Origin: Eubacterium sp. 14-2
Lineage (GTDB): Bacteria > Bacillota > Clostridia > Lachnospirales > Lachnospiraceae
Reading direction: 5' to 3'
NCBI RefSeq assembly: GCF_000403845.2
Contig: NZ_KE159567.1
Location: forward strand, 628,911-692,910
DNA: 64,000 nt
A program made the position numbers and the translations under genes. The notes below the pieces were generated by a model. That model saw only the letters and a program-made list of their open reading frames with translations. It ran no database searches and was not told where the DNA came from. Positions 17,405 to 56,034 of the stretch are shown here, piece by piece. Positions within the stretch are counted from its first letter, which is position 1; every line of letters begins with the position of its first letter.

Positions 17405-17456
17405 ATCAGAGTGTCAAAAGCACCTTTGGTGCTATGCACCCTTTTGACACCCTAAT
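17405..17456. repeat. Hairpin repeat (family D), probable terminator
   Basis: GTGTCAAAAG (17411-17420) pairs with CTTTTGACAC (17441-17450), flanked by imperfect GAT-C-AG / CT-A-ATC arms and an inner CACC/GGTG stem. A related copy with the same arms lies at 38536-38573. Confidence 0.7.
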
Positions 17457-33187: not shown

Positions 33188-36100
33188 ATGAACAGCATTT
33201 GCCGTGATATTTTCAGAGCCATCCATGAGGGCAGATGGATGAGCATTGAATATCGTAACAGAGAAGAGCAGATTTCAAGATACTGGATTGGGATATATGA
33301 CCTGAATCCGGCAAAGCGCACCATGAAAGTGGAAGGTCTGCATCTGGGCAGGTACACCACCGAAACCTTTGAAGCGATTTATATTGACTCCATTCTTTCT
33401 TCCTCCGTTGTGGAAGGTTCTTATTGTCCCGTAAATGAGAAGCTGGTACGGGATATGGAAGAAAATCCCCGTAAATACAAGGATTTGTTTGAACATTCGG
33501 CAAATCTGAAAATACTGAATTATCTGGAGCTGTGCAACCGCATGGATACGGTTCCTTATTATTCCGATTTTGAACTGATACGGTATCTGGACCGGGAGAG
33601 CTTCCGGGGAGAAGAGTATCTGCTGAATGAAGACCAGTTCCGTATGATTGTGAAACAGTTCCAGTACAAAACCACGGAAAAGCGAAACAGGGAAGGAAAG
33701 CTGAAAATACAGCAGCTTGCCATAAACGTACTCAGCATTCCCACGCCCCGGGGACTGTATGTGCTGGCTTACCGGAAGCTGCAGCTTGATGTAAAGCAGC
33801 GGGTTCTGCGGCCTGACGATGAGATTGTTATCTGCACCGAATACACCCTGGACGGAGTAAAAGAAAATGTGCGGAAATTTCTGGACGGGGAGGAATATGA
33901 ACTGCTGAAGGAGTTTGAGCAGAATCAGGAACAGATTAAGGAATGTATTACAAACCACAGCAGACAGGCTGTGGGCGTAGATGACATGCCTTACCTGATT
34001 GGTCTGGGCATGGATATTATACTGGATTTGCACAAAGAATATGAGGCTGTCACAGACATGTATCAGAAAGAGGAAGTGACAGCCCCCATTCAGGCATTTT
34101 TTGGTGAAATGGTGCGCAGACCCCGCCGGAGAAAGGCGTATCCGGTGGTACTTGCAGAACAGAAGGTGAATCTGGACCAGCTTCTGGCCATCAATAACGC
34201 CATGAAATATCCCGTTGCCTATATCCAGGGGCCGCCGGGAACCGGAAAAACCAGCACCATAATCAACACCATTGTCACGGCCTTTTTCAATGAAAAGACC
34301 GTGCTGTTTGTGTCGTATAACAATCACCCCATCAACGGAGTGGTGGAAAAACTGCTGTCCATGAAATACCAGGACAAAACCATTCCCTTTCCGGTGCTGC
34401 GTCTTGGAAACAGTGAGAAAATGCAGGAAGCGCTGGAACATATCCAGGCAGTATATGAACAGACCATATCCGTTAAAATTTTCACGTCCACCCTGGACAG
34501 GAACCGGGATGACAGAATTGAACGGGCCAGGAAACTTTCTGATTTGCTGCGCAGATATGAGGAACTGCTGGATCTGGAAGAACGCAGAGAAACCATCAGC
34601 CGGATGCTGGAATATGAAGGCGGCAGCCTGTCCGTTCAGATGCTGCCCTTCCAGGCAGATTTGCAGGGCAGGCAGATGGAGCAGGTAAAACGCAGAATGG
34701 AAAAGACAGGGAGTATTACCGAGGAAGAAGCATTTTCCCTGCTGGATGACAAGGTGGAAGACCTGAAAAAATATCTGTATTACACTTCCGCCAGATATAT
34801 CCGGAAACTGGATCTGCCCAGACATAAGGATTTGAAAGAAATTGTTTTCAATGAAAATAAGAAGACACGTCTGGAGGATTTTTCCAGATATCTGAGCAGG
34901 AAGGAAAATATAAAAAAACTTCAGGAAATTTTTCCCATAGTGGCTACCACCTGCATTTCCGCCCATAAGCTGGGAGAGCCTGCGCCCATGTTTGACATGG
35001 TGATTATGGATGAAGCCAGCCAGTGTAACACAGCCGTTTCTCTGGTGCCCGTGATCCGGGGCAGCAGCCTGATGATGGTGGGAGACCCCCAGCAGCTTAA
35101 CCCGGTGATTCAGCTGGAGGAAATGGTCAATCAGAAACTCAGGAAAAAATACAACGTTCCGGAAGAATACGATTACCGGAAAAATTCCATTTACAAAACC
35201 TTTCTGGCCTGTGATGCGGTAAATGATGAAATTCTCCTTCACTATCATTACCGCTGTCATGAGAAAATCATCGGATTTAACAATAAAAAATACTATAATG
35301 AAAAGCTCTGTATCAAAACCGAAAGCCGGGAACCGGAACCTCTTCTGTATCTGGATGTGAGAGACAGTCAGAGCAGCGGAAAAAATACCGCGCCTGGGGA
35401 AGTGGAAGAAATCATAAAATACGCCGGAAAAAACAGAGATAAAACCATTGGGGTGATTACTCCTTTTGTAAACCAGAAAAAGCTGTTGGAGGAGGGGCTT
35501 AAGCAGGCGCGTCTGTCCAATGTGGACTGCGGTACCGTTCATGCTTTTCAGGGAGATGAAAAAGACATTGTACTGTTTTCCACAGCCATTACATCCCAGA
35601 CTCAGGCAGGCACCTATGAATGGCTGAAAAACAACAAAGAGCTGATTAATGTGGCTACTTCCAGAGCAAAAGACAGGCTGATTATACTGTCGGACCTGAA
35701 AAATCTGGAGCGGCTGCACCAGCAGGACGGAGAGGACGATCTGTATGAGCTGATACAGTATACCAGGAGGAACGGGAAATCCCAGGTCACCGGAAAACAG
35801 GCAAATTCCAGAGCCCTTGGGGTTAAGCCCTTCAGCTCTGCCACAGAGGAAGCATTTCTGAAAAATCTGAATCATGCCCTGGAAAATATCTGGCTGACCC
35901 AGAACCGTTTCCAGATACAGCGGGAGGTGGCTGTTTCAGATATTCTGCCCGGACAGGGGCCGGAACTGTTTTATGCTGACAGGTTTGATTTCGTGGTGTA
36001 TGAGCAGCAGAAAGAAAAGGAAATACCGGTACTGGCCATTGAACTGGAAGGCAGAGAACATCTGGAAGAGGAAGTGCGGAAACGGCGGGAAGAACAGAAA

Positions 36101-36211
36101 CAGGAACTTTGCCGGAAATTTGATCTGCAGGTGATCCAGGTGGAGAATTCCTATGCCAGAAGGTACAATCATATCAAGGAAATTCTTATGAATTTCTTCC
36201 GCAGCAGTTAA
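33188..36211 (+). CDS. WYL-like / superfamily 1 helicase / PD-(D/E)XK-like nuclease fusion
   Basis: 1007 residues. Residues ~1-80 resemble a WYL-type sensor (IFRAIHEGRWMSIEYRNREEQISRYWIGIYDL). An SF1 (Upf1/DNA2-like) helicase core follows, with Walker A GPPGTGKT near 348, a long helical insertion, Walker B MDEASQ near 605, GDPQQLNPV near 632, and motifs IV-VI (VITPFVNQK, GTVHAFQGDEKD, NVATSRAKDRLI). The last ~90 residues look like a DUF2726/PD-(D/E)XK nuclease: RFDFVV, AIELEGREH, then K in EQKQELC. This combination suggests nucleic-acid surveillance or phage defence. Catalysis is inferred from motifs. Not named in any system I can identify. Confidence 0.82.
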   Translation: MNSICRDIFRAIHEGRWMSIEYRNREEQISRYWIGIYDLNPAKRTMKVEGLHLGRYTTETFEAIYIDSILSSSVVEGSYCPVNEKLVRDMEENPRKYKDLFEHSANLKILNYLELCNRMDTVPYYSDFELIRYLDRESFRGEEYLLNEDQFRMIVKQFQYKTTEKRNREGKLKIQQLAINVLSIPTPRGLYVLAYRKLQLDVKQRVLRPDDEIVICTEYTLDGVKENVRKFLDGEEYELLKEFEQNQEQIKECITNHSRQAVGVDDMPYLIGLGMDIILDLHKEYEAVTDMYQKEEVTAPIQAFFGEMVRRPRRRKAYPVVLAEQKVNLDQLLAINNAMKYPVAYIQGPPGTGKTSTIINTIVTAFFNEKTVLFVSYNNHPINGVVEKLLSMKYQDKTIPFPVLRLGNSEKMQEALEHIQAVYEQTISVKIFTSTLDRNRDDRIERARKLSDLLRRYEELLDLEERRETISRMLEYEGGSLSVQMLPFQADLQGRQMEQVKRRMEKTGSITEEEAFSLLDDKVEDLKKYLYYTSARYIRKLDLPRHKDLKEIVFNENKKTRLEDFSRYLSRKENIKKLQEIFPIVATTCISAHKLGEPAPMFDMVIMDEASQCNTAVSLVPVIRGSSLMMVGDPQQLNPVIQLEEMVNQKLRKKYNVPEEYDYRKNSIYKTFLACDAVNDEILLHYHYRCHEKIIGFNNKKYYNEKLCIKTESREPEPLLYLDVRDSQSSGKNTAPGEVEEIIKYAGKNRDKTIGVITPFVNQKKLLEEGLKQARLSNVDCGTVHAFQGDEKDIVLFSTAITSQTQAGTYEWLKNNKELINVATSRAKDRLIILSDLKNLERLHQQDGEDDLYELIQYTRRNGKSQVTGKQANSRALGVKPFSSATEEAFLKNLNHALENIWLTQNRFQIQREVAVSDILPGQGPELFYADRFDFVVYEQQKEKEIPVLAIELEGREHLEEEVRKRREEQKQELCRKFDLQVIQVENSYARRYNHIKEILMNFFRSS

Positions 36212-36659: not shown

Positions 36660-38252
36660 ATGAGTTTGTGGGAAATGAGTGTTGCAGGAGGAATATTGAT
36701 TCTGGCGATTCTTCCGGTGCGCAGGCTGTTTCGGAACAGGCTGCCGGCAGGGACGTTTCTGGTTTTGTGGACTATAGCCTTTCTGCGCCTGCTGGTTCCC
36801 GTTTCCGTACCAGCGCCCTGCAATGTATATACATTGCTGGAAATCTGCGGCGTGGAATTAAATCCGGCCGGGCTGCCGGAAATTTTCCGGATGTCAGACA
36901 CAGACTGGAACAGCAGTGAGACTTTGGAACAGAACTCTGTTGTGAAAAAAGCAGGATCCAAAGAACAGGATTCAGCGGGAAGCGGCAGAGGGGATGGAAA
37001 TGCGATTCCGGATTCCGGAAAACAGGTCAGGGACTGGAGGAACCTTTTCCCATGGCGCCTGCTCTATCTGGCCGGGGTATTGGGGACCGCTGTGTTTTAC
37101 GGGTTTACTTATCTGAAATGCCGGCGGGAATTTTGCATGGCGCTGCCGGTGGAAGATGAGGCTGTCCAGAAGTTTGTGAGTTCTTTTCCTGTGAAACGCC
37201 GGGTGCAGGTGCGTCAGACCGATCTTCTTGCAACGCCCATGACTTACGGGGTGCTGCGCCCTGTGATTTTACTTCCCGGAGGAATGGAATGGGAGAATTC
37301 CAGACAGATGGAGCTGGTACTTACCCATGAGCTGGTGCATATCTGCAGATTTGATGTGCTCCGGAAGCTGCTGCTGGTAACCGGAATATGCGTACACTGG
37401 TGGAATCCTCTGGTGTGGGTAATGTATGTTCTGGCCGGCCGGGATATGGAACTGGCCTGTGATGAACGGGTAATTCGGCATTTTGGACAGGAATCCGGAA
37501 AAATGTATGCGCTTTCTTTAATCAGTCTGGCAGAACGCAGAAATCATGTTATGTCCTGGGGAAATGGATTTGGCAGATTTTCATCTCACAGGAAACTGCC
37601 TTTTGGCAGAAATGCCATGGAAGAAAGGATTGTTGCGATTATGAAAAAGAAGAGATTCGGGCTGGCAGAAACAGCAGGCGGGGCAGTGCTGGTGGTTTTT
37701 GTTGCTGTCTTATTCGCCACTTCCGCAGCTCAGAAAAGTGCGGAGGAAACAAAGGCGGCGAAACAGGAGGCAGCGGAGCATGAAGCGGGATATCAGGAAG
37801 AAGATGACAGGCTGACTGTCCGGATTCCGGCGCCCCATGTGCCTTACGTGGATGGCAGTCTGGGTGCGGAGGAACGTATTGATTCCGAGCAGATCTATGG
37901 AGAGGCTTCAGCGGAGGAAAGCGGATTCATTAATCTGGAAGAGCCGCAGGCAGAGGGGGATTATGACGCTTCCGAAGGCGCTCTTGAAACAGACGGAATC
38001 ACTCAAATTGATTTTCCGGAGGAATACAGAAAGTACGGTGTGACAGAAGAGGGAAAATATAAGGAAAAACAGATTGCGGTCCTGTACGATGCCGGACATT
38101 TTATCTATTGTGACGGCTGCCAGGATATTCCGGAATCGGAGACAACATATCTGCTGATCAAACGTGATGCAAAGGATAAGATAATTTCTTTTGCGGAAGT
38201 GACCAGAGAAGAAATGCAAAAGTCCGTGGAAGATACGGGGCTTGAGCTGTGA
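36660..38252 (+). CDS. BlaR1/MecR1-type M56 membrane metalloprotease
   Basis: 530 residues. Several N-terminal membrane spans and a cytoplasmic zinc protease loop with HELVH (near residue 223) and ELACDERV (near 263) as metal ligands. A further span (about 343-360) leads to an extracellular acidic tail of ~170 residues. The tail does not show the SxxK/SxN/KTG motifs of a penicillin-binding sensor, so the inducer may not be a beta-lactam. On sensing a signal it should cleave the BlaI-like repressor. RBS GAGGTGA. No beta-lactamase is adjacent. Confidence 0.88.
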   Translation: MSLWEMSVAGGILILAILPVRRLFRNRLPAGTFLVLWTIAFLRLLVPVSVPAPCNVYTLLEICGVELNPAGLPEIFRMSDTDWNSSETLEQNSVVKKAGSKEQDSAGSGRGDGNAIPDSGKQVRDWRNLFPWRLLYLAGVLGTAVFYGFTYLKCRREFCMALPVEDEAVQKFVSSFPVKRRVQVRQTDLLATPMTYGVLRPVILLPGGMEWENSRQMELVLTHELVHICRFDVLRKLLLVTGICVHWWNPLVWVMYVLAGRDMELACDERVIRHFGQESGKMYALSLISLAERRNHVMSWGNGFGRFSSHRKLPFGRNAMEERIVAIMKKKRFGLAETAGGAVLVVFVAVLFATSAAQKSAEETKAAKQEAAEHEAGYQEEDDRLTVRIPAPHVPYVDGSLGAEERIDSEQIYGEASAEESGFINLEEPQAEGDYDASEGALETDGITQIDFPEEYRKYGVTEEGKYKEKQIAVLYDAGHFIYCDGCQDIPESETTYLLIKRDAKDKIISFAEVTREEMQKSVEDTGLEL

Positions 38253-38403
38253 GACATATTACTTACGGGCAGAGCGCTTCTACAGAGAGAATTATTGACT
38301 GTTATTATCTTTTAGTTTATGCCATCGGAAAAATCATATACGATAAATCATTATTGAGAGCTGTCTTTTCAGGCAGTTCTCTTTTCTCTTTGCGGGAAAT
38401 GCT

Positions 38404-38428
38404 TTGTCATGTTAAGGCGTGAAAGTAT
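38404..38428 (+). repeat. Repeat family B core, degraded copy
   Basis: 25 bases beginning TTGTCA and ending TGAAAGTAT, matching 8321-8345 and 60405-60429. The flanking stem here is poorly preserved. Confidence 0.75.
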
Positions 38429-38535
38429 CTTTTCGACAGGCAGAAGCCCTCTTATGATACTTTTGGTAGCAAGAATATGAGTTTTGTGTTAGACTGTAAA
38501 AAACAGGAAATATGATATGTGTAATTTACTGAAAA

Positions 38536-38573
38536 GATCAGGGTGTCAAAAGCACCTTTTTGACACCCTGATC
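38536..38573. repeat. Hairpin repeat (family D), perfect copy
   Basis: GATCAGGGTGTCAAAA (38536-38551) pairs over 16 bp with 38558-38573 around a GCACCT loop. It shares arms with 17405-17456. It lies 35 bases before the DUF262 gene. Confidence 0.85.
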
Positions 38574-38607
38574 CTGAAAAGTAATATAACAGATATGGAG
38601 GCTGCCA

Positions 38608-39756
38608 ATGGCTGATTATATGGAAAGTTACGAGGAAGACGAAGTTTCTGTGGAAAATACAGAAGAACTGGAAGAACTGAAGTATTCAGGGGAAGAGGAA
38701 AGGCCTGTCTTTGAGCTGGTGCGGGTAACAAAAAAGGATTTTTCAATTTATGAACTTTACAGGAAATACAGAAAGAAACAACTGGTATTAGAGGTGGAAT
38801 TTCAAAGAAATGAAGTATGGGAAAAAAAGCAGAAGTATGAATTGATCGAAAGTATTTTAATGGGGCTTCCGCTGCCCATCTTTTATTTTAAACAGCAGGA
38901 TAATGCTACATATGTGGTGGTAGACGGGAAACAGAGGCTGTCAACACTGTTTGATTTTCTGAATAATAAATTTGCTCTGAAATCCCTTAAAATTCTGTCA
39001 TTTCTGAATGAAAAAAAGTTTGGAGATCTGACGGGAAAACTGGGGATTTATCAGTCGCAACTGGAAGATTATCAGGTATACTCTCATGTAATCCTCCCTC
39101 CAACGCCGGATAAAATATTATTTGATATTTTTGACCGGGTGAATCGGGGAGGAACTTTGTTAAATAAGCAGGAAATCAGAAATGCACTGTATCATGGCAG
39201 AGGCCTGGATATGATAACGGATATTACAAAGACAGAGGAATTTGTCAATGTTACACGTAAAAAACATGAAAAGGACAGCAGAATGAAAGGTTCTTATCTG
39301 GTGACAAGATTTTTGTCTTTTTATTTGCTGTTTCAGAAATGTTTAATGAAAGATGGGGCAGAATATGAGTATAACGGAGATGTGGATGAGCTGATTGAAG
39401 TAATGTTGCAGCAGTTAAACAACGAGGAAGAGGAAGCATTGGCTAAGATAAAGGAACTGACGTTAAAAAGTCTGGCTATGGCAGGGGACATTTTAGGCAG
39501 GGGAGCGTTTCGTAAAGAACTGAATGGTTCAAAACCTATTAACATGAATATTTTTGAGACAACGTTGTATTTTATGGCGTTGTTAATAGAAAAAGACCAG
39601 GACACAGATGAGGAGAAAATAAAGGAAGGACTGTATCAGGTGATAACCAGTGCGGAATTTCTGGATCTGATTGGAAACAGCAGAGATTATCCGGCAAAGG
39701 TATACAGAAGATTCATGTTAATGGAAAATTTAGCTGAGGTGATTTGTAATGATTGA
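38608..39756 (+). CDS. DUF262 domain protein, first gene of a putative defence cassette
   Basis: 382 residues. Acidic N-terminus of ~30 residues, then a DUF262 (ParB/sulfiredoxin-like) domain: FQRNEVWEKKQKYELIESILMGLPLPIFYF, the nucleotide-handling VVDGKQRLSTL (near 105-113) and FDRVNRGGTLLNKQEIRNAL near 175. The C-terminal half is helical and has no HNH motif (no DUF1524), so it is not a GmrSD-type fusion. DUF262 proteins are common in modification-dependent restriction and other defence systems. It overlaps the ATPase gene by 8 bases. Confidence 0.85.
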   Translation: MADYMESYEEDEVSVENTEELEELKYSGEEERPVFELVRVTKKDFSIYELYRKYRKKQLVLEVEFQRNEVWEKKQKYELIESILMGLPLPIFYFKQQDNATYVVVDGKQRLSTLFDFLNNKFALKSLKILSFLNEKKFGDLTGKLGIYQSQLEDYQVYSHVILPPTPDKILFDIFDRVNRGGTLLNKQEIRNALYHGRGLDMITDITKTEEFVNVTRKKHEKDSRMKGSYLVTRFLSFYLLFQKCLMKDGAEYEYNGDVDELIEVMLQQLNNEEEEALAKIKELTLKSLAMAGDILGRGAFRKELNGSKPINMNIFETTLYFMALLIEKDQDTDEEKIKEGLYQVITSAEFLDLIGNSRDYPAKVYRRFMLMENLAEVICND

Positions 39757-40879
39757 AAAAATTCATATTAAAGCCTTAAAATCAATTCGGGAATTAACGG
39801 TAAAATGTTCAGATATTAATTTACTGGTTGGTACAAATTCATCGGGAAAGTCAACATTTCTGCAGGCATTGCTGCTGATGGCGCAGAATGGGAAAAGTAC
39901 CGTCGGGCTAAATGGAAAGCTGGTTTCTCTGGGAGAATTTCGCGAAGTGAGGAACCATTATATGTCGAGTGAGACCATAAAAATAGAGGTATGGGAAAAA
40001 GGAAAAGAAAAGGCGGCATGGATTGAATTTGCGGAAGATAAGAAAAGAGATACTTATAAAGTATATGCATCTGAACCGGAGAAAGATATTCTGAATTATG
40101 CAAATACAGAGGATTATGTAAAAGAGCAGTCCGTATTTCTTTCTGAGAACAGTCAGTTTCATTACTTATCCTGTCACAGGACAGGAGCCAGTGATATTTA
40201 TACAAAAAATATGATGGAAGAAAGGGATTTTGGCGTAGATGGAGAATATGCAATGGCATATCTGCTTAAAAATCAGTTGCAGCCAGTTGATACAGCGGTA
40301 AAAGATGACAGTATTACGAATAGCCTGCTGGAACAGGTAAATTACTGGCTGAACTATATCGTGGGTACAACCTTATATGTTAATGATTTAAAAAAAACAA
40401 ATTATTTACAGGTAAAATATAACAATAATCCCGCAAATATCAGTTCTGAGGCATTGTATTGCAGGCCGGTGAATGTAGGTTCCGGTATCAGTTATTTAAT
40501 CAGCATTATCATCACATGTCTTGGTGCTGAAAAAGGTGCAGTAATTATTATTGAAAATCCTGAAATACATCTTCATCCCAGGGCACAGTCCAGATTATGC
40601 GAATTTTTGTATTTTGTCAGCCGGTCAGGACGTCAGCTGTTTTTGGAAACCCATAGTGATCATATTTTTAATGGGATACGTGCAGGAGTCGCCACAGGGG
40701 AGATGGAGCAGGAACATATAAAGGTTCATTTTTTTGCTGTAAACGAGCAATATGAGACTCAGTGCAATCCCATTATATTTGAAAAGTTTGGAAAAATAGT
40801 GGGATTAAACGAGGAGATGGATATAAAGGATTTATTTGACCAGTTTGAGATTGATCTGGACAGAATGCTGGGAATCTGA
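39749..40879 (+). CDS. ABC/SMC-like AAA ATPase (DUF3696-like), second gene of the cassette
   Basis: 376 residues. Walker A GTNSSGKST near residues 28-36, an ABC-signature-like VGSGISYLISI near 247, Walker B AVIIIENPEIHLHPRAQS near 263-280 and an H-loop LETHSDH. This layout matches the overcoming-lysogenisation/DUF3696 group of ATPases, without a Toprim nuclease at the C-terminus. Start ATG overlaps the DUF262 stop (AATGATTGA), giving translational coupling. Probable ATP-driven switch or sensor of the cassette. AT-rich codon use compared with the housekeeping genes. Confidence 0.85.
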   Translation: MIEKIHIKALKSIRELTVKCSDINLLVGTNSSGKSTFLQALLLMAQNGKSTVGLNGKLVSLGEFREVRNHYMSSETIKIEVWEKGKEKAAWIEFAEDKKRDTYKVYASEPEKDILNYANTEDYVKEQSVFLSENSQFHYLSCHRTGASDIYTKNMMEERDFGVDGEYAMAYLLKNQLQPVDTAVKDDSITNSLLEQVNYWLNYIVGTTLYVNDLKKTNYLQVKYNNNPANISSEALYCRPVNVGSGISYLISIIITCLGAEKGAVIIIENPEIHLHPRAQSRLCEFLYFVSRSGRQLFLETHSDHIFNGIRAGVATGEMEQEHIKVHFFAVNEQYETQCNPIIFEKFGKIVGLNEEMDIKDLFDQFEIDLDRMLGI

Positions 40880-40901
40880 GTTAAAAGGGGTACGAAAGAA
40901 G

Positions 40902-41666
40902 ATGGATTATTACCTGAACGAATATTCATTAAGAGGACAGTTTAATGATTTGGATGAATTTTATACTTCTTTACGTGAGTATACTTTGCCGGTTTTGAAA
41001 AAGGTGCGTGAAGGAAACGGAAATATTATCTGGAAAAGAGATACATTCTGGCAGTCTGAAATCTGTAATGGAGTATCTCTGGGAAATATTCCACAAAAGA
41101 AAAATGAACGGTCAGGCGAGTATGCAGCATTTAAAATACAGCTGACAAAACTTGCGCGCGAAGGGCCTTTCTGGGAAAATACCGAAGATGAAAAGATTCG
41201 GGTGAAAGAATATTATTTTGACCTGGAGTATTGTGAAAAATTTGATACAGTCAACTGTTTTTCAAAAGCAGTTGAAACAGAAGGCAAAATTATATCTTTT
41301 CTTCATCAGGCGTACGGAGAGGAAAAACTTTCTGTTCGGGTTCAATATTTAAACAGAGAGGAAGAATATAAAATAGATAATATTTTTACACCTCACTGGT
41401 GGGATAAAGAGGCGGAAATAAGAACCTGGAGAATTGGACAGAAATACATGATAGAGATACGGGCCAATGAGTTCGATTTTCATCCACCTCATTTTCATGT
41501 TTCCAGTAATGAATTTTCAGCGGTGTTTAAGTTGAGTGACGGAAAGCTGTATGCAGGTGGAAAGAAAAGATGGCACCCCCAAATGATTTCAGAAATAGAG
41601 GAGTGGTATCGAGTACATAAAGAAGAATTAAAAGAAGCCTGGGATAATCTTCACGGGAATCTGTAA
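40902..41666 (+). CDS. DUF4160-containing protein, third gene of the cassette
   Basis: 254 residues from the ATG at 40902, with AAAAGGGG upstream; a longer frame from 40836 would overlap the ATPase by 44 bases. The N-terminal ~180 residues are unrecognised, beginning NEYSLRGQFNDLDEFYTSLRE. The last ~65 residues resemble DUF4160: MIEIRANEFDFHPPHFHV, ending KEELKEAWDNL; DUF4160 proteins often accompany toxin-antitoxin loci. Starts 22 bases after the ATPase stop. Possibly the effector or its regulator. Function unknown. Confidence 0.7.
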   Translation: MDYYLNEYSLRGQFNDLDEFYTSLREYTLPVLKKVREGNGNIIWKRDTFWQSEICNGVSLGNIPQKKNERSGEYAAFKIQLTKLAREGPFWENTEDEKIRVKEYYFDLEYCEKFDTVNCFSKAVETEGKIISFLHQAYGEEKLSVRVQYLNREEEYKIDNIFTPHWWDKEAEIRTWRIGQKYMIEIRANEFDFHPPHFHVSSNEFSAVFKLSDGKLYAGGKKRWHPQMISEIEEWYRVHKEELKEAWDNLHGNL

Positions 41667-41741
41667 TTTTCCTGTTCACAACAGAAATCAGACGATTAAA
41701 AACATTTCACTCACCAGGCGCCGGCCTCCTTCCGAAATGTG

Positions 41742-46850: not shown

Positions 46851-46958
46851 AAAGTCCGGGTGCATGGCGTCAGGAACTTCCGCCAGACAAAAGACCGGAA
46901 AATCTATCATTTCCGGCAGGGCAGAAATATTCAGAACAGTACAGATGGGAGGAAACCG

Positions 46959-48272
46959 ATGGAATGTCTGACCACAAAACATTATAAATATATGGATTTG
47001 GAAAAACGTTATCATATGATTTATCCGGAAAGCTCCAATGCCACCTATACGAGTCTTCTGAATTATTCCGATGACCTTAATAAGCCTTTTCAGCGGTGGT
47101 ACCGCTATAAAGAAGGATTTTCCACAGAAATGGTGGAGCAGCTGATACGAGAATATTCCATACATAAAAAAGGTGTGATTCTGGACCCCTTTTCCGGAAG
47201 CGGAAGTACGCTGCTGGCTGCAGCCCATATGGGATATCAGGGGGTTGGATTTGAGGTAAATCCTTTTTCCTGCTTTCTGTCCCGCTGTAAGCTGGAATCC
47301 TGCTCAGGGGAAGAACGGGAGCAGTTTCGGGAAGCGTATGAGCGGATTCTGGAACAGGCGTCAGAGACAGAACAGGAATATGTGCTGCCGGGACTTTCTA
47401 TCAGCCATAAAGTGTTTGAAAAACAGGTGGAAGCATATTTCATGAGGGCAGGGCAGCTGATGGAAACGGATCTGAATCTGACAGAAAAAGTGCGGAATCT
47501 GCTGAAGCTGGGCTGGCTGTCCTGTCTGGAGCCTCTGTCCCATTACAGAAAGGCCGGGAACGGACTGAAAATAAAAAAATATGTAAAGCCCAGGGTGGTG
47601 ACTCCGGAGGATGCCCGTAACATGCTGCTGGAGGAATATCGGAACATATATGCGGATCTGCAGGAGCACAGCCAGCAGGGAAAGACAAAACTGTATCAGG
47701 ATTCCTGCCTGAATATGAACCGGTATCTGGAAGAAAAGAGTGTGGAGGGCATTATATTTTCGCCTCCCTATGCCAATTGTTTTGACTACACGGAAATTTA
47801 TAAGCTGGAGCTGTGGTTCGGAAAGTTTGTGTCGGATTACGGAGATTTAAAGAGACTGAGAAACCAGTCCCTGCATTCACACCTTAATGGAGATCTGAGT
47901 CCGGAACCGGAGCCGGAAAGCGAGATTCTGGAAGAACTGCTGGAAGAACTGAAAGACAGAAAGCTGTGGGACAAAAAAATCCCCAGAATGCTGCGCCTTT
48001 ACTACCGGGATATGTTTCAGGTTCTGCGGGAAAGCTGCCGGGTGCTGGATAAGGATGGTTTCTGCTGCATTGTGGTGGGAAATTCCGCCTATGGCGGCGT
48101 GGTATTTCCGGCAGACCTGATACTGGCCGAATATGGTGAGCGAACCGGGTTTGCTGTGGACAAAATAGAGGTGGACCGATATATTATCACCAGTTCCCAG
48201 CAGTATGAAAAGACGAAAGAAACGGGAAAATATTTAAGGGAGAGTGTGGTATGTCTGAGAAAGAACAAATAG
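46959..48272 (+). CDS. DNA methyltransferase (amino-methyl type), first of a pair
   Basis: 437 residues from the ATG at 46959 (GGGAGG 6 bases upstream). SAM-binding motif I DPFSGSGSTLLA near residue 75 and the catalytic motif IV SPPYAN near 268, consistent with N6-adenine or N4-cytosine methylation. The ~190 residues between them probably contain the target-recognition domain. The last 22 bases overlap the second methyltransferase. No restriction nuclease is adjacent. Recognition sequence unknown. Confidence 0.85.
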   Translation: MECLTTKHYKYMDLEKRYHMIYPESSNATYTSLLNYSDDLNKPFQRWYRYKEGFSTEMVEQLIREYSIHKKGVILDPFSGSGSTLLAAAHMGYQGVGFEVNPFSCFLSRCKLESCSGEEREQFREAYERILEQASETEQEYVLPGLSISHKVFEKQVEAYFMRAGQLMETDLNLTEKVRNLLKLGWLSCLEPLSHYRKAGNGLKIKKYVKPRVVTPEDARNMLLEEYRNIYADLQEHSQQGKTKLYQDSCLNMNRYLEEKSVEGIIFSPPYANCFDYTEIYKLELWFGKFVSDYGDLKRLRNQSLHSHLNGDLSPEPEPESEILEELLEELKDRKLWDKKIPRMLRLYYRDMFQVLRESCRVLDKDGFCCIVVGNSAYGGVVFPADLILAEYGERTGFAVDKIEVDRYIITSSQQYEKTKETGKYLRESVVCLRKNK

Positions 48273-49513
48273 TGGAGGTAGAAACTCTGCCCGATGAAAT
48301 CATACAGGGAGCCACATATTTTATCCGGCAGTCCAGTCCCAATTCCTACACCCATGGCATGTTTAAATATCCCTGTAAATTTATACCGGAAATTCCCGGA
48401 TGGGGAATCCGTACCTGCACCCGGAGCAGAGAAGAACTTGTGTTCGACCCTTTTTCCGGGAGCGGGACAACGTTGCTGGAAGCAAACCTGCAGGGATTTC
48501 ACGCCTGCGGGACAGAGATAGACGACATTGCGAAACTGATTATCAGAGTTAAGACCACCCGGCTGAAAGAAGAACAGATGAAACTGCTGGATGAAGAATT
48601 TCAGCGGATTCTGGAATTGTCTTTCAGAGGAAAAGGCCAGTGTTACCGGCCTGAAATTGACAATCTGGAACACTGGTTTTCTCCGGAAGCTATCGGGGAC
48701 CTTGGACGGATACGGGTCTGTGTGGAGGAAATCCGGGACCAGGAAGTGAGAGATTTTTTCCGCCTCTGTATGGCCTCCATCATAAAAAGAGTTTCCAATG
48801 CAGACGATACATCTCCCAAGCCCTATGTTTCCGGTAAAATAAAAAAAGTGCCGCCGCCAGTGGAACGGGAGTTCGTTTCCGTATTTCACAGATATCAGCA
48901 GATGGTCCGGGAGCTTTCGTTGGTGGAACATCTGGGAAGCACGGAAATTCTTGCGGGGGACGCACTGAATTTTTCCGCTCCGGGAAGAATCAGCCTGGCA
49001 GTCACTTCACCGCCTTATATCAATGCTTTTGACTATGGCAGAACCATGCGTCTGGAAAATCTGTGGCTGGGCACGCTGACAGAAACATCTCTGCGGGAAA
49101 AGAAAAAGCAGTATGTGGGAACTGAAAAAATTGATGCCAGGGAAGAAGACCGGAGACTGGATATTCTGGAAAAAAGCAGTCTGTTAAAAGAATACTACGA
49201 AAAAATCGCTGTGCAGGACCGGAAACGCGCTTTAATCGTAAAAAAGTTTTTTGAGGATATGGAGACGAACCTGAAAACAGTCCGCGGCCAGATGGAGCCA
49301 GGCGGACGTTATATGATTGTTATCGGCAACAGCGTCATTCGGAAAGTAACGGTGGAAAGCTGGCGGGTTCTGGAAGAAATTGCCTGCACGCTGGGGTTTT
49401 GCACCTGGCGGCAGTTTGGCTATGTCATCCAGAATCCCTATATCAGAATCCCCAGAAAAGGGATGGGCGGAAAAATCAGCAGGGATTATGTGCTGGTACT
49501 GGAATGTGTGTAA
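48251..49513 (+). CDS. DNA methyltransferase (amino-methyl type), second of a pair
   Basis: 420 residues. Motif I VFDPFSGSGTTLLEA near residue 66 and motif IV TSPPYINAFDYGRT near 253, with a similar layout to the preceding gene, so the two may methylate the two strands of an asymmetric site or act as a heterodimer. N-terminal segment contains SSPNSYTHGMFKYPCKFIPEIP. Overlaps the first enzyme by 22 bases, so they are translationally coupled. The only neighbour downstream is a tRNA-modification-type gene. Confidence 0.85.
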   Translation: MSEKEQIVEVETLPDEIIQGATYFIRQSSPNSYTHGMFKYPCKFIPEIPGWGIRTCTRSREELVFDPFSGSGTTLLEANLQGFHACGTEIDDIAKLIIRVKTTRLKEEQMKLLDEEFQRILELSFRGKGQCYRPEIDNLEHWFSPEAIGDLGRIRVCVEEIRDQEVRDFFRLCMASIIKRVSNADDTSPKPYVSGKIKKVPPPVEREFVSVFHRYQQMVRELSLVEHLGSTEILAGDALNFSAPGRISLAVTSPPYINAFDYGRTMRLENLWLGTLTETSLREKKKQYVGTEKIDAREEDRRLDILEKSSLLKEYYEKIAVQDRKRALIVKKFFEDMETNLKTVRGQMEPGGRYMIVIGNSVIRKVTVESWRVLEEIACTLGFCTWRQFGYVIQNPYIRIPRKGMGGKISRDYVLVLECV

Positions 49514-53844: not shown

Positions 53845-54375
53845 ATGAGGAAGATAAGTTTATTTATTGCAATGAGCCTTGATGGATATATTGCAGATAA
53901 TATGGGCAGTGTTGACTGGCTGAACGGGCAGGGCAATGATGATAAGAATATTGATACCTTTTCTGAATTTTCCAAAACCATTGACACGGTCTTAATGGGG
54001 TGGAATACTTATCATCAAATCGTTACTGAACTTTCCCCAAAAGAGTGGGTATATAACGAATTTACAACTTATGTCATCACGCATAACGAACATACTTCCT
54101 CTGAAAAAATTCGATTTGTAAACGTAGATCCTGCTGATTTGGTGAAAAGATTAAAAGAGGAAAATGGAAAAGATATATGGATATGTGGCGGAGCTAATCT
54201 TGTCGGGCAGTTAGTAAGTGAAGATTTGATTGATTATTATCATATCACTGTAATTCCGACACTTTTAGGTTCTGGCATACGGCTTTTTGAAAATGGAAGG
54301 TATGAGATTAAATTAAAATTGCTTCATACACAGTCTTATAATGGTATGACAGAGTTAATTTATACACGAAGATAA
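53845..54375 (+). CDS. Dihydrofolate reductase-fold family protein (RibD_C type)
   Basis: 176 residues. MRKISLFIAMSLDGYIADNMGSVDWL at the N-terminus, TVLMGWNTY, DIWICGGANLVGQL and TVIPTLLGSGIRLF are typical of the YyaP/DfrA-like group, whose substrates are mostly unknown. Codon use is clearly more AT-rich than in surrounding genes, suggesting recent acquisition. RBS AAAGGAG. It starts a three-gene run with the P-loop kinase-like protein and the DUF4261 protein. Confidence 0.88.
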   Translation: MRKISLFIAMSLDGYIADNMGSVDWLNGQGNDDKNIDTFSEFSKTIDTVLMGWNTYHQIVTELSPKEWVYNEFTTYVITHNEHTSSEKIRFVNVDPADLVKRLKEENGKDIWICGGANLVGQLVSEDLIDYYHITVIPTLLGSGIRLFENGRYEIKLKLLHTQSYNGMTELIYTRR

Positions 54376-54400
54376 ACGGGAATTGTCAGGAGGCAATAAA

Positions 54401-54946
54401 ATGATTGTTTTGATTACAGGAGCTTCCCATACAGGTAAAACATTACTGGCACAAAAACTTCTTGAAAAGTATAAATATCCGTATCTGTCCATTGACCTGC
54501 TGAAAATGGGATTAATACGAAGTAAAAATACGGATTTAACACCTGAAGAAGATGATGAGCTTACAGACTATTTGTGGCCCATTATTCGTGAAATTATAAA
54601 GACGACCATTGAAAACAGGCAAAATCTTGTGGTTGAGGGCTGTTATATTCCGCCTGACTGGAACAAAGATTTTTCAGAAGAATATCTGAAAGATATCCAA
54701 TATTATTGTCTTGTAATGAGCAGAGAATATATAGAGAAACATTTTTCAGATATAAAACAATATGCCAGTGAAATCGAACAACGCATGGATGATTCCTGGT
54801 GTACTATGACATCAGTTCTTGAGGATAATGCCCGCTGTCTTGAAATGTGTAAAAAATATGGCTGTAATTATATATTGATTGATGAATGCTACCGGACAGA
54901 TATTGATTTGGAAAAGGGAAATGGATATTGGAGGAAACAGATATGA
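54401..54946 (+). CDS. P-loop kinase-like protein
   Basis: 181 residues from the ATG at 54401 (AGGAGG upstream). Walker A GASHTGKT at residues ~8-15, YLSIDLLKMGLI after strand 2, VVEGCYIPP and a C-terminal ILIDE segment resemble small kinases of the adenylate/zeta-toxin-like class. Substrate unknown; no toxin-antitoxin partner is evident. AT-rich like the preceding gene. The DUF4261 gene start overlaps its last codons by 4 bases. Confidence 0.75.
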   Translation: MIVLITGASHTGKTLLAQKLLEKYKYPYLSIDLLKMGLIRSKNTDLTPEEDDELTDYLWPIIREIIKTTIENRQNLVVEGCYIPPDWNKDFSEEYLKDIQYYCLVMSREYIEKHFSDIKQYASEIEQRMDDSWCTMTSVLEDNARCLEMCKKYGCNYILIDECYRTDIDLEKGNGYWRKQI

Positions 54947-56034
54947 ACGAACAGCAAAAAGCAGCAACAGAAGTAATGGAAGAATGGCTTTCCCATCCCG
55001 ATGAACTTGGGAAAAAGCCTGCGAAACTGGAGATTGCAGGAGAATTTGACCTGCATGATCTGCACTACTATATTTTCAAATTTAAAAAATCAAAGATGGG
55101 TTCCTGGAAAGTGGCAGTCTGCGGAGGGTATGACGGAGAAGGGCTGGGCCACTGCGGCCACATTTACAGTGAAATGGAGAATTATGACCCTGCCACTGCA
55201 GAGGAAAAATGCGTAGCCATGGTAGAAGCAATCCGTCTGTACTGGATGGAGCGGGCGAAAGAGGAAGAAAATCAGGGCACAGAGCACATGAGCGGATCAT
55301 TTGTGGGATTTGTCCTGCTGTCTGCGCCGGAATTTGATGTGGAAAATTTCCGTGCAGTTTTAAAAGAGGACTGGGAAATTGAATGCCCAAAAGAGCCGGA
55401 GCATCCGGAAAACAAACAGGATGCCATTGTTTTTGAAGTGAATAACATGACGGTCACAGTGGGACTGATGGATATGCCAGTTCCCGATGGTGAGGCAGAG
55501 TATTGGGCCAACAGTAATTTTATGACCAGAGAAAAGTCTGTTGCTGCAGCCAAAAATCACAAAGCCCATTTACTGGTGGCTGTACTGGGTGGAGATTCGG
55601 CGCCGCTGGAGGCAGGAAAGCTCTTTGTTAAAATTGTATGCGCCTGTCTGAAAGGACCCGGCGCCCTTGGAATTTATGACTGCGGAACCGTGTGGCTGCC
55701 GGAGCATTTTATTCAGATGGCCATGGTGATGAAAGAAGGGGCGCTGCCTCTGGGGAATCTGGTGTTTGTGGGACTGTATCAGGATGAAAAGGGCGTCAGC
55801 AGCTGGACCAATGGGCTGAACTCCTTTGGCAAAGACGAGCTGGAAGTGATTGAAAGCAGCCAGCCGGCGTCTGAAGTTTACGACTTAATGCTGGGCATCT
55901 CCGCCTATGTTCTGGAGGAAGGGGCCGTTCTGCGGGACGGGGAGACCATTGGATTTTCTCCGGAGCAGAAGCTGTTTCTGACACGCTCAGAAGGGGTTTA
56001 CGGGGAGGGACAGACCATAAAAATCAGATTTTGA
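54943..56034 (+). CDS. DUF4261 domain protein
   Basis: 363 residues from the ATG at 54943 (TGGAGG upstream); an in-frame TTG at 54928 is less likely. The N-terminal ~110 residues contain YYIFKFKKSKMGSWKVAVCGGYDGE. The central and C-terminal part is DUF4261-like (GFVLLSAPEFD, SVAAAKNHKAHLLVAV, GIYDCGTVWLP, LVFVGLYQDEKGVSSWTNGLNSFGKDELEV). No catalytic motif is evident. Function unknown. Base composition returns to the GC level of the chromosome here, unlike the two genes before it. Confidence 0.8.
   Translation: MNEQQKAATEVMEEWLSHPDELGKKPAKLEIAGEFDLHDLHYYIFKFKKSKMGSWKVAVCGGYDGEGLGHCGHIYSEMENYDPATAEEKCVAMVEAIRLYWMERAKEEENQGTEHMSGSFVGFVLLSAPEFDVENFRAVLKEDWEIECPKEPEHPENKQDAIVFEVNNMTVTVGLMDMPVPDGEAEYWANSNFMTREKSVAAAKNHKAHLLVAVLGGDSAPLEAGKLFVKIVCACLKGPGALGIYDCGTVWLPEHFIQMAMVMKEGALPLGNLVFVGLYQDEKGVSSWTNGLNSFGKDELEVIESSQPASEVYDLMLGISAYVLEEGAVLRDGETIGFSPEQKLFLTRSEGVYGEGQTIKIRF

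Follow-up and report, generated by a model that had tools for sequence, protein, structure and literature searches.

A cassette assigned to the Menshen anti-phage system, with a DUF4160-tailed NsnC, in Eubacterium sp. 14-2

In Eubacterium sp. 14-2, three consecutive genes encode a DUF262 protein, an ABC-type ATPase and a protein that ends in a DUF4160 domain. Does this trio constitute an undescribed defense system, as proposed in a preliminary description, or does it represent a system that already has a name, and what might the DUF4160 domain contribute to it? We addressed these questions by computational analysis of a 64,000-nucleotide stretch of contig NZ_KE159567.1 (hereinafter, the window), combining profile searches, gene neighborhood comparison, structural modeling and comparison with related genomes. 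The features of the cassette are collected in Table 1.

Table 1. Features of the inserted cassette (window positions)
Feature	Position	Strand	Remarks
inserted cassette: leader and nsnA-nsnB-nsnC	38253..41666	+	right edge uncertain, about 41657-41671
terminator-like stem, then T-run, in insert leader upstream of nsnA	38356..38381	+	consensus match
perfect 16-base inverted repeat upstream of nsnA	38536..38573	.	right arm holds TTGACA
promoter-like site in leader	38560-38587		top-scoring; TTGACA of the inverted repeat as -35-like hexamer
nsnA	38608..39756	+	DUF262/GmrSD_N protein, 382 aa, no HNH
nsnB	39749..40879	+	OLD/ABC-type ATPase, 376 aa, no Toprim
nsnC	40902..41666	+	254 aa; N-domain of about 160 residues, C-terminal DUF4160
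DUF4160 domain of NsnC	41451..41642	+	residues 184-247 (Pfam); HPPHFH motif from residue 194

The cassette and its site of insertion

The gene layout of the preliminary description holds: there are three co-directional open reading frames, the first two overlapping by 8 bases, and the third protein has 254 residues. The mechanically assigned start of the third frame is a TTG at 40836; the 254-residue reading starts with the ATG at 40902, with which the N-termini of relatives align. Pfam likewise bears out the proposed domain content. In NsnA, GmrSD_N (DUF262) was the only domain found (residues 49-195, 82.9 bits), without a DUF1524/HNH nuclease; the protein contains VDGKQR at residues 105-110, a DGxQR-type nucleotide motif that recurs in 64 of the 76 NsnA proteins of at least 300 aa, the window copy included. 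NsnB matches AAA_15 (110 bits) as well as AAA_21 and carries the Walker A sequence GTNSSGKS from residue 28, a motif present in 75/77 NsnB proteins of at least 300 aa. Compared with the PDB, the NsnB profile finds the OLD nuclease 6p74_A as its best match (58.6 bits), with AriA at 36.2 and PtuA (8ee4_A) at 33.6 bits. The DUF4160 domain of NsnC scores 42.2 bits (cut-off, 23). Pfam detects no Toprim domain in any of the three proteins. Type IV restriction and an OLD/Toprim nuclease were rejected as identities of the cassette, given that HNH and Toprim, respectively, are absent in Pfam searches.

The cassette is an insert of approximately 3.4 kb, as indicated by an empty site in two of the 29 genomes searched in the genus (G606 and G607), where window-like sequence up to position 38252 is contiguous with that from 41657, the flanks being about 81% identical to the window. 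In both genomes, the blaR1 homolog directly precedes sequence that matches the window from about 41657. The left edge thus follows the blaR1 stop (38252), the right edge lies at about the nsnC stop, and the insert consists of a leader and these three genes only. The contrast in base composition that had been noted for the locus is confirmed: the GC content of 38253-41666 is 37.3%, compared with 47.1% and 46.0% in the flanking 10 kb, and is the lowest among 1212 segments of equal size.

The sites marked in the leader are consensus matches only, with 4 terminator-like sites found versus 1.8 expected, and 20 promoter-like sites versus 10.4 expected, the latter being weak evidence. The inverted repeat is one of two window copies (38536-38573 and 17408-17453) of a palindromic hairpin repeat of the GATTAGGGTGTCAAAAG...CTTTTGACACCCTAATC type that is dispersed in the genome; the search returned 17 match rows, read as the query and 12 other places, and the repeat arm is present in 12/12 fetched stretches (L200-L211).

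Several other genes of the window deserve mention. Near the cassette and outside it, 33188-36211 encodes an AAA_11/AAA_12 helicase of 1007 aa, carrying DUF2726 at its C-terminus, which resembles MkoA of Mokosh over the helicase part (182 bits). Two adjacent DNA methyltransferase genes at 46860-49513 give type II methyltransferase matches of 371 and 433 bits, with no restriction enzyme gene among the neighbors scanned. An AT-rich stretch at 53845-56034 (GC 0.351 at 54001-55000) encodes RibD_C, an AAA/kinase-like protein and a DUF4261 protein.

Identity and conservation of the three-gene unit

The PADLOC models of NsnA, NsnB and NsnC match the three proteins in this order. NsnA scores 317 bits over residues 14-380 (runner-up, PD-T4-2_A, 121) and NsnB 306.7 bits over residues 1-375 (runners-up, HEC-03B and AriA, 119 each); NsnC scores 79.1 bits over residues 1-167 of 254, that is, over the N-domain alone, so that the DUF4160 tail falls outside all four matching NsnC models. 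Judged by these model matches, the trio is a copy of the named Menshen anti-phage system (NsnA-NsnB-NsnC). The proposal of an undescribed system is thereby ruled out: the preliminary description had itself given an exact match to a named system as grounds for dropping the proposal, and the trio matches one. Nor is the N-terminal domain of the third protein unrecognized, as had been stated, given that the PADLOC NsnC models cover it. Among the literature matches listed, Menshen and DUF4160 were never joined in titles or abstract openings; a DUF4160 form of Menshen may already be in print in the work of Li et al. on Menshen 'domain polymorphism' (NAR 2025, gkaf357).

The conservation of the unit was assessed at 80 loci from a search with an NsnB alignment (A1), the best 80 of 227 NsnB relatives. 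Under a strict rule of position and strand, NsnA is adjacent at 75 of these best 80, the NsnC N-domain at 75, and both at 71; 13 of the 80 have only a weak NsnA match, of 18-48 bits. Where the rule failed, the causes differ. At L076 and L087 both partners are there and were missed through an over-extended ORF start alone; at L031 NsnB is split, L044 lies at the edge of the available DNA, and the loci L074 and L078 are fragments; at L081 and L085 NsnA matches and the NsnC N-domain does not, and L053 has neither partner.

A family-level search found the NsnC N-domain in 9 of 299 genomes, with NsnB beside it in 9/9 and an NsnA match in 7/9, the fetched loci being about 2.5-3.5 kb long with NsnA often cut off. 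Homologs of the third gene occurring mostly without the other two would have spoken against a three-gene unit; for the N-domain, this is not so, and the conserved defense unit envisaged in the preliminary description, with both partners flanking NsnB at most loci and the trio forming a single insert here, is upheld. By itself, the DUF4160 domain occurs mainly outside NsnC-like genes (45 matches in 31 of 100 family genomes, 4 of the 45 in NsnC-like genes).

Toxin-family tails on a common N-domain

Third genes were sought at 93 loci and, after removal of 8 duplicates and of 11 cases in which the gene was short or missing, 74 distinct full-length proteins were kept. The N-domain is common to 71 of the 74, and 71/74 match the NsnC models. 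The tails of these 71 proteins are of three types, namely, gp49/HigB-like (17), RelE/HigB/YafQ-like by fold (45) and DUF4160 (9), between which no sequence kinship is detectable. An N-domain profile built from any single tail class recovers all members of the other two (9, 17 and 45), whereas a tail profile of one class finds no member of the others; the tail half of this comparison is partly built in, the classes having been separated at first by eye and subsequently with profiles derived from these groups, with within-class matches arising by construction, and the N-domain half is not. Behind a shared N-domain, the C-terminus of NsnC is exchanged among toxin-family types, which suggests a phage alarm whose poison can be exchanged.

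The gp49 domain is recognized by Pfam in 14 of the 74 third proteins, one seed of the gp49 class (L006) having no such match. For the unnamed class, represented by L047, nearly all of 50 structural rows are toxins of the RelE/HigB/YafQ/YoeB/ParE type, and 43 sequences of this RelE-like type all carry K252, R260 and H279. In a tree of 72 rows, obtained by a quick method and with L037 and L081 flagged as long branches, the DUF4160 branch falls among the gp49 types with support of only 83 and 87; the DUF4160 tails may have one origin. Three NsnA/NsnB-like loci (L081, L094 and L096) encode a third protein that the NsnC N-domain profile fails to detect, and one of these proteins matches the gp49-type tail profile.

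In Dickeya dadantii, according to the available part of PMC8198452, overproduction of the DUF4160 protein DhiT inhibits the growth of Dickeya and of E. coli, and there is no growth inhibition when DhiT is co-expressed with DhiA (DUF2442). The HPPHFH motif is kept in 9/9 DUF4160-type NsnC proteins. With the NCBIfam DhiT model, the window NsnC reaches 25.6 bits, under the cut-off of 100, which makes the tail a distant relative of DhiT. The AlphaFold2 model of this protein is of high confidence (pLDDT 93.2, pTM 0.80) and yields no useful PDB match for the DUF4160 part and hence no enzymatic clue. Among the PDB matches of the window NsnC, no BECR chain is listed, and there is no PIN chain among the rows for the model, in a search that barely probed the N-domain; the unnamed class, as represented by L047, does resemble the BECR fold. 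Across the 74 third proteins, no nearly invariant column is formed by an acidic residue, though the column of residue 7 is 97% acidic.

Two further DUF4160 loci were observed. A Streptococcus MAG (L037:9053-10012) encodes an NsnC with DUF4160 at residues 174-234 followed by 85 residues, a second, differently built DUF4160 form. At L010 (G054), the NsnC-like frame of a DUF4160-type Menshen copy contains an internal stop, and this copy looks decayed.

Function and relation to known systems

The identity of the three proteins, the conservation of the trio, its presence as one insert and the exchange of NsnC tails are observations; how the cassette works is an inference. We favor, with a probability of roughly 0.6, a Menshen operon in which NsnA and NsnB would sense infection and control NsnC as a tethered toxin. 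NsnA, a DUF262 protein of the ParB-like NTPase type, and NsnB, an OLD-type ABC ATPase, would form the sensing and switching part, and NsnC would be the effector, tied to them by its conserved N-domain, with the C-terminal DUF4160 of the DhiT toxin family as the putative poison. In the uninfected cell, the complex would hold the toxin silent; phage infection would change the ATPase/NTPase state and free or activate the toxin, and growth would stop (abortive infection). We infer the restraint of the toxin by NsnA/NsnB, as well as its trigger. The profile relatives of NsnB are an OLD nuclease, AriA and PtuA; AriA, in the part of PMC12839542 available, is reported to detect a phage protein and activate the separate effector AriB. 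The sensor-switch-effector appearance ascribed to the cassette at the outset is supported, the third protein bearing a toxin-family domain. If the effector reading holds, Menshen becomes testable as a toxin checked by a DUF262/ATPase pair, and DUF4160 in a defense setting.

The roles could be reversed, the variable C-terminus of NsnC sensing phage or host proteins and the ParB/Srx-like NsnA acting as a nuclease effector switched on by NsnB. A variable domain could also be a sensor, Menshen activity requires the DUF262 protein (PMC10952713, in the part available), and PtuX, a DUF262 protein, is ascribed a putative nuclease function in the accessible part of PMC11980606. We nevertheless find this arrangement unlikely: the variable domains belong to toxin families (gp49, RelE/YafQ-like by fold, DUF4160), the residues invariant across the RelE-like tails resemble an active site more than a changing recognition face, and NsnA has no HNH domain.

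Still more doubtful is a plain toxin-antitoxin cassette, with NsnC as a DhiT-type toxin and NsnA/NsnB as its antitoxin, serving maintenance of the cassette and not phage defense, even though DUF4160 is a type II toxin family and the trio was inserted as a unit. Maintenance modules do not usually contain two large NTPases, and the flanking ORFs scanned gave no DUF2442 match. For free-standing DUF4160 genes from viral contigs, DUF2442 was found in 37 of 48 scanned neighbors (61 loci fetched, 59 with a DUF4160 ORF and 48 with a small ORF within about 60 bases; one neighbor was scanned per locus, 48 of the 71 neighboring ORFs). At DUF4160-type NsnC loci, it was found in 0/13 small ORFs on the same strand (60-160 aa, up to about 900 bp away), a comparison that used a wider span than that for the free-standing set; the 13 ORFs come from 5 of the 8 DUF4160-type loci including the window, no such ORF was present at the remaining 3, and the sequence of L014 stops 274 bases after nsnC. 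The next gene downstream of the window nsnC is FlxA-like. Moreover, the trio matches a system reported by others as anti-phage (PMC10952713, in the part available). A decayed or silent Menshen copy is most improbable, considering that the three frames and their VDGKQR, Walker A and HPPHFH motifs are intact and that, as a weak additional sign, the leader contains a promoter-like site.

The cassette can be set against several known systems. GmrSD, BrxU and SspE share the DUF262 domain with NsnA and differ in their DUF1524 HNH nuclease, for which there is no counterpart here; Gabija differs by its Toprim domain, absent from the window trio. OLD-family nucleases provide the best PDB profile match of NsnB, which lacks their Toprim nuclease domain. 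PARIS (AriA-AriB) combines a related OLD/ABC-type ATPase with a separate effector, as here, and differs in that the window trio has no Toprim effector and possesses an extra DUF262 protein. With DhiTA (DUF4160/DUF2442), as far as PMC8198452 was available, the cassette shares a DUF4160 domain with the PPHxH motif; here this domain is fused to the NsnC N-domain and falls well short of the DhiT cut-off, and the scanned flanks of DUF4160-type NsnC genes yielded no DUF2442 gene.

Menshen itself has the same three proteins in the same order and on the same strand, the difference being the DUF4160 tail beyond the region covered by its models. In the part of PMC10952713 available, Menshen is described as having a DUF262 gene without DUF1524, the mutation or deletion of which abolished resistance, and an OLD-type Toprim is linked to one component; none was found in the window trio. 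A further likeness is to ptuXYZ (Gerdes, mBio 2025, PMC11980606), in the available account of which a DUF262 protein without DUF1524 and a PtuA-like ATPase accompany a two-domain third protein. PtuZ has a PIN-like N-domain devoid of catalytic residues and ends in a BECR (RelE-like) fold, whereas the window NsnC ends in DUF4160; by description, ptuXYZ corresponds to the gp49/RelE-tailed type, to which 62 of our 74 third proteins belong, and the RelE-tailed form of Menshen appears to have been published separately under this name. The terms Menshen and DUF4160 each occur 0 times in the text of PMC11980606. Taken together, we lean, by a narrow balance, toward Menshen being a system that exchanges entire toxin families at the NsnC tail, with ptuXYZ as Menshen and, in the window, a differently composed toxin domain of the DUF4160/DhiT type in place of the RelE/HigB-type RNase, its own DUF2442 antitoxin left behind and two NTPases in control. 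The claim of a 'new system' falls away, and Menshen, ptuXYZ and the DhiT toxins, treated separately in print, are brought into one picture.
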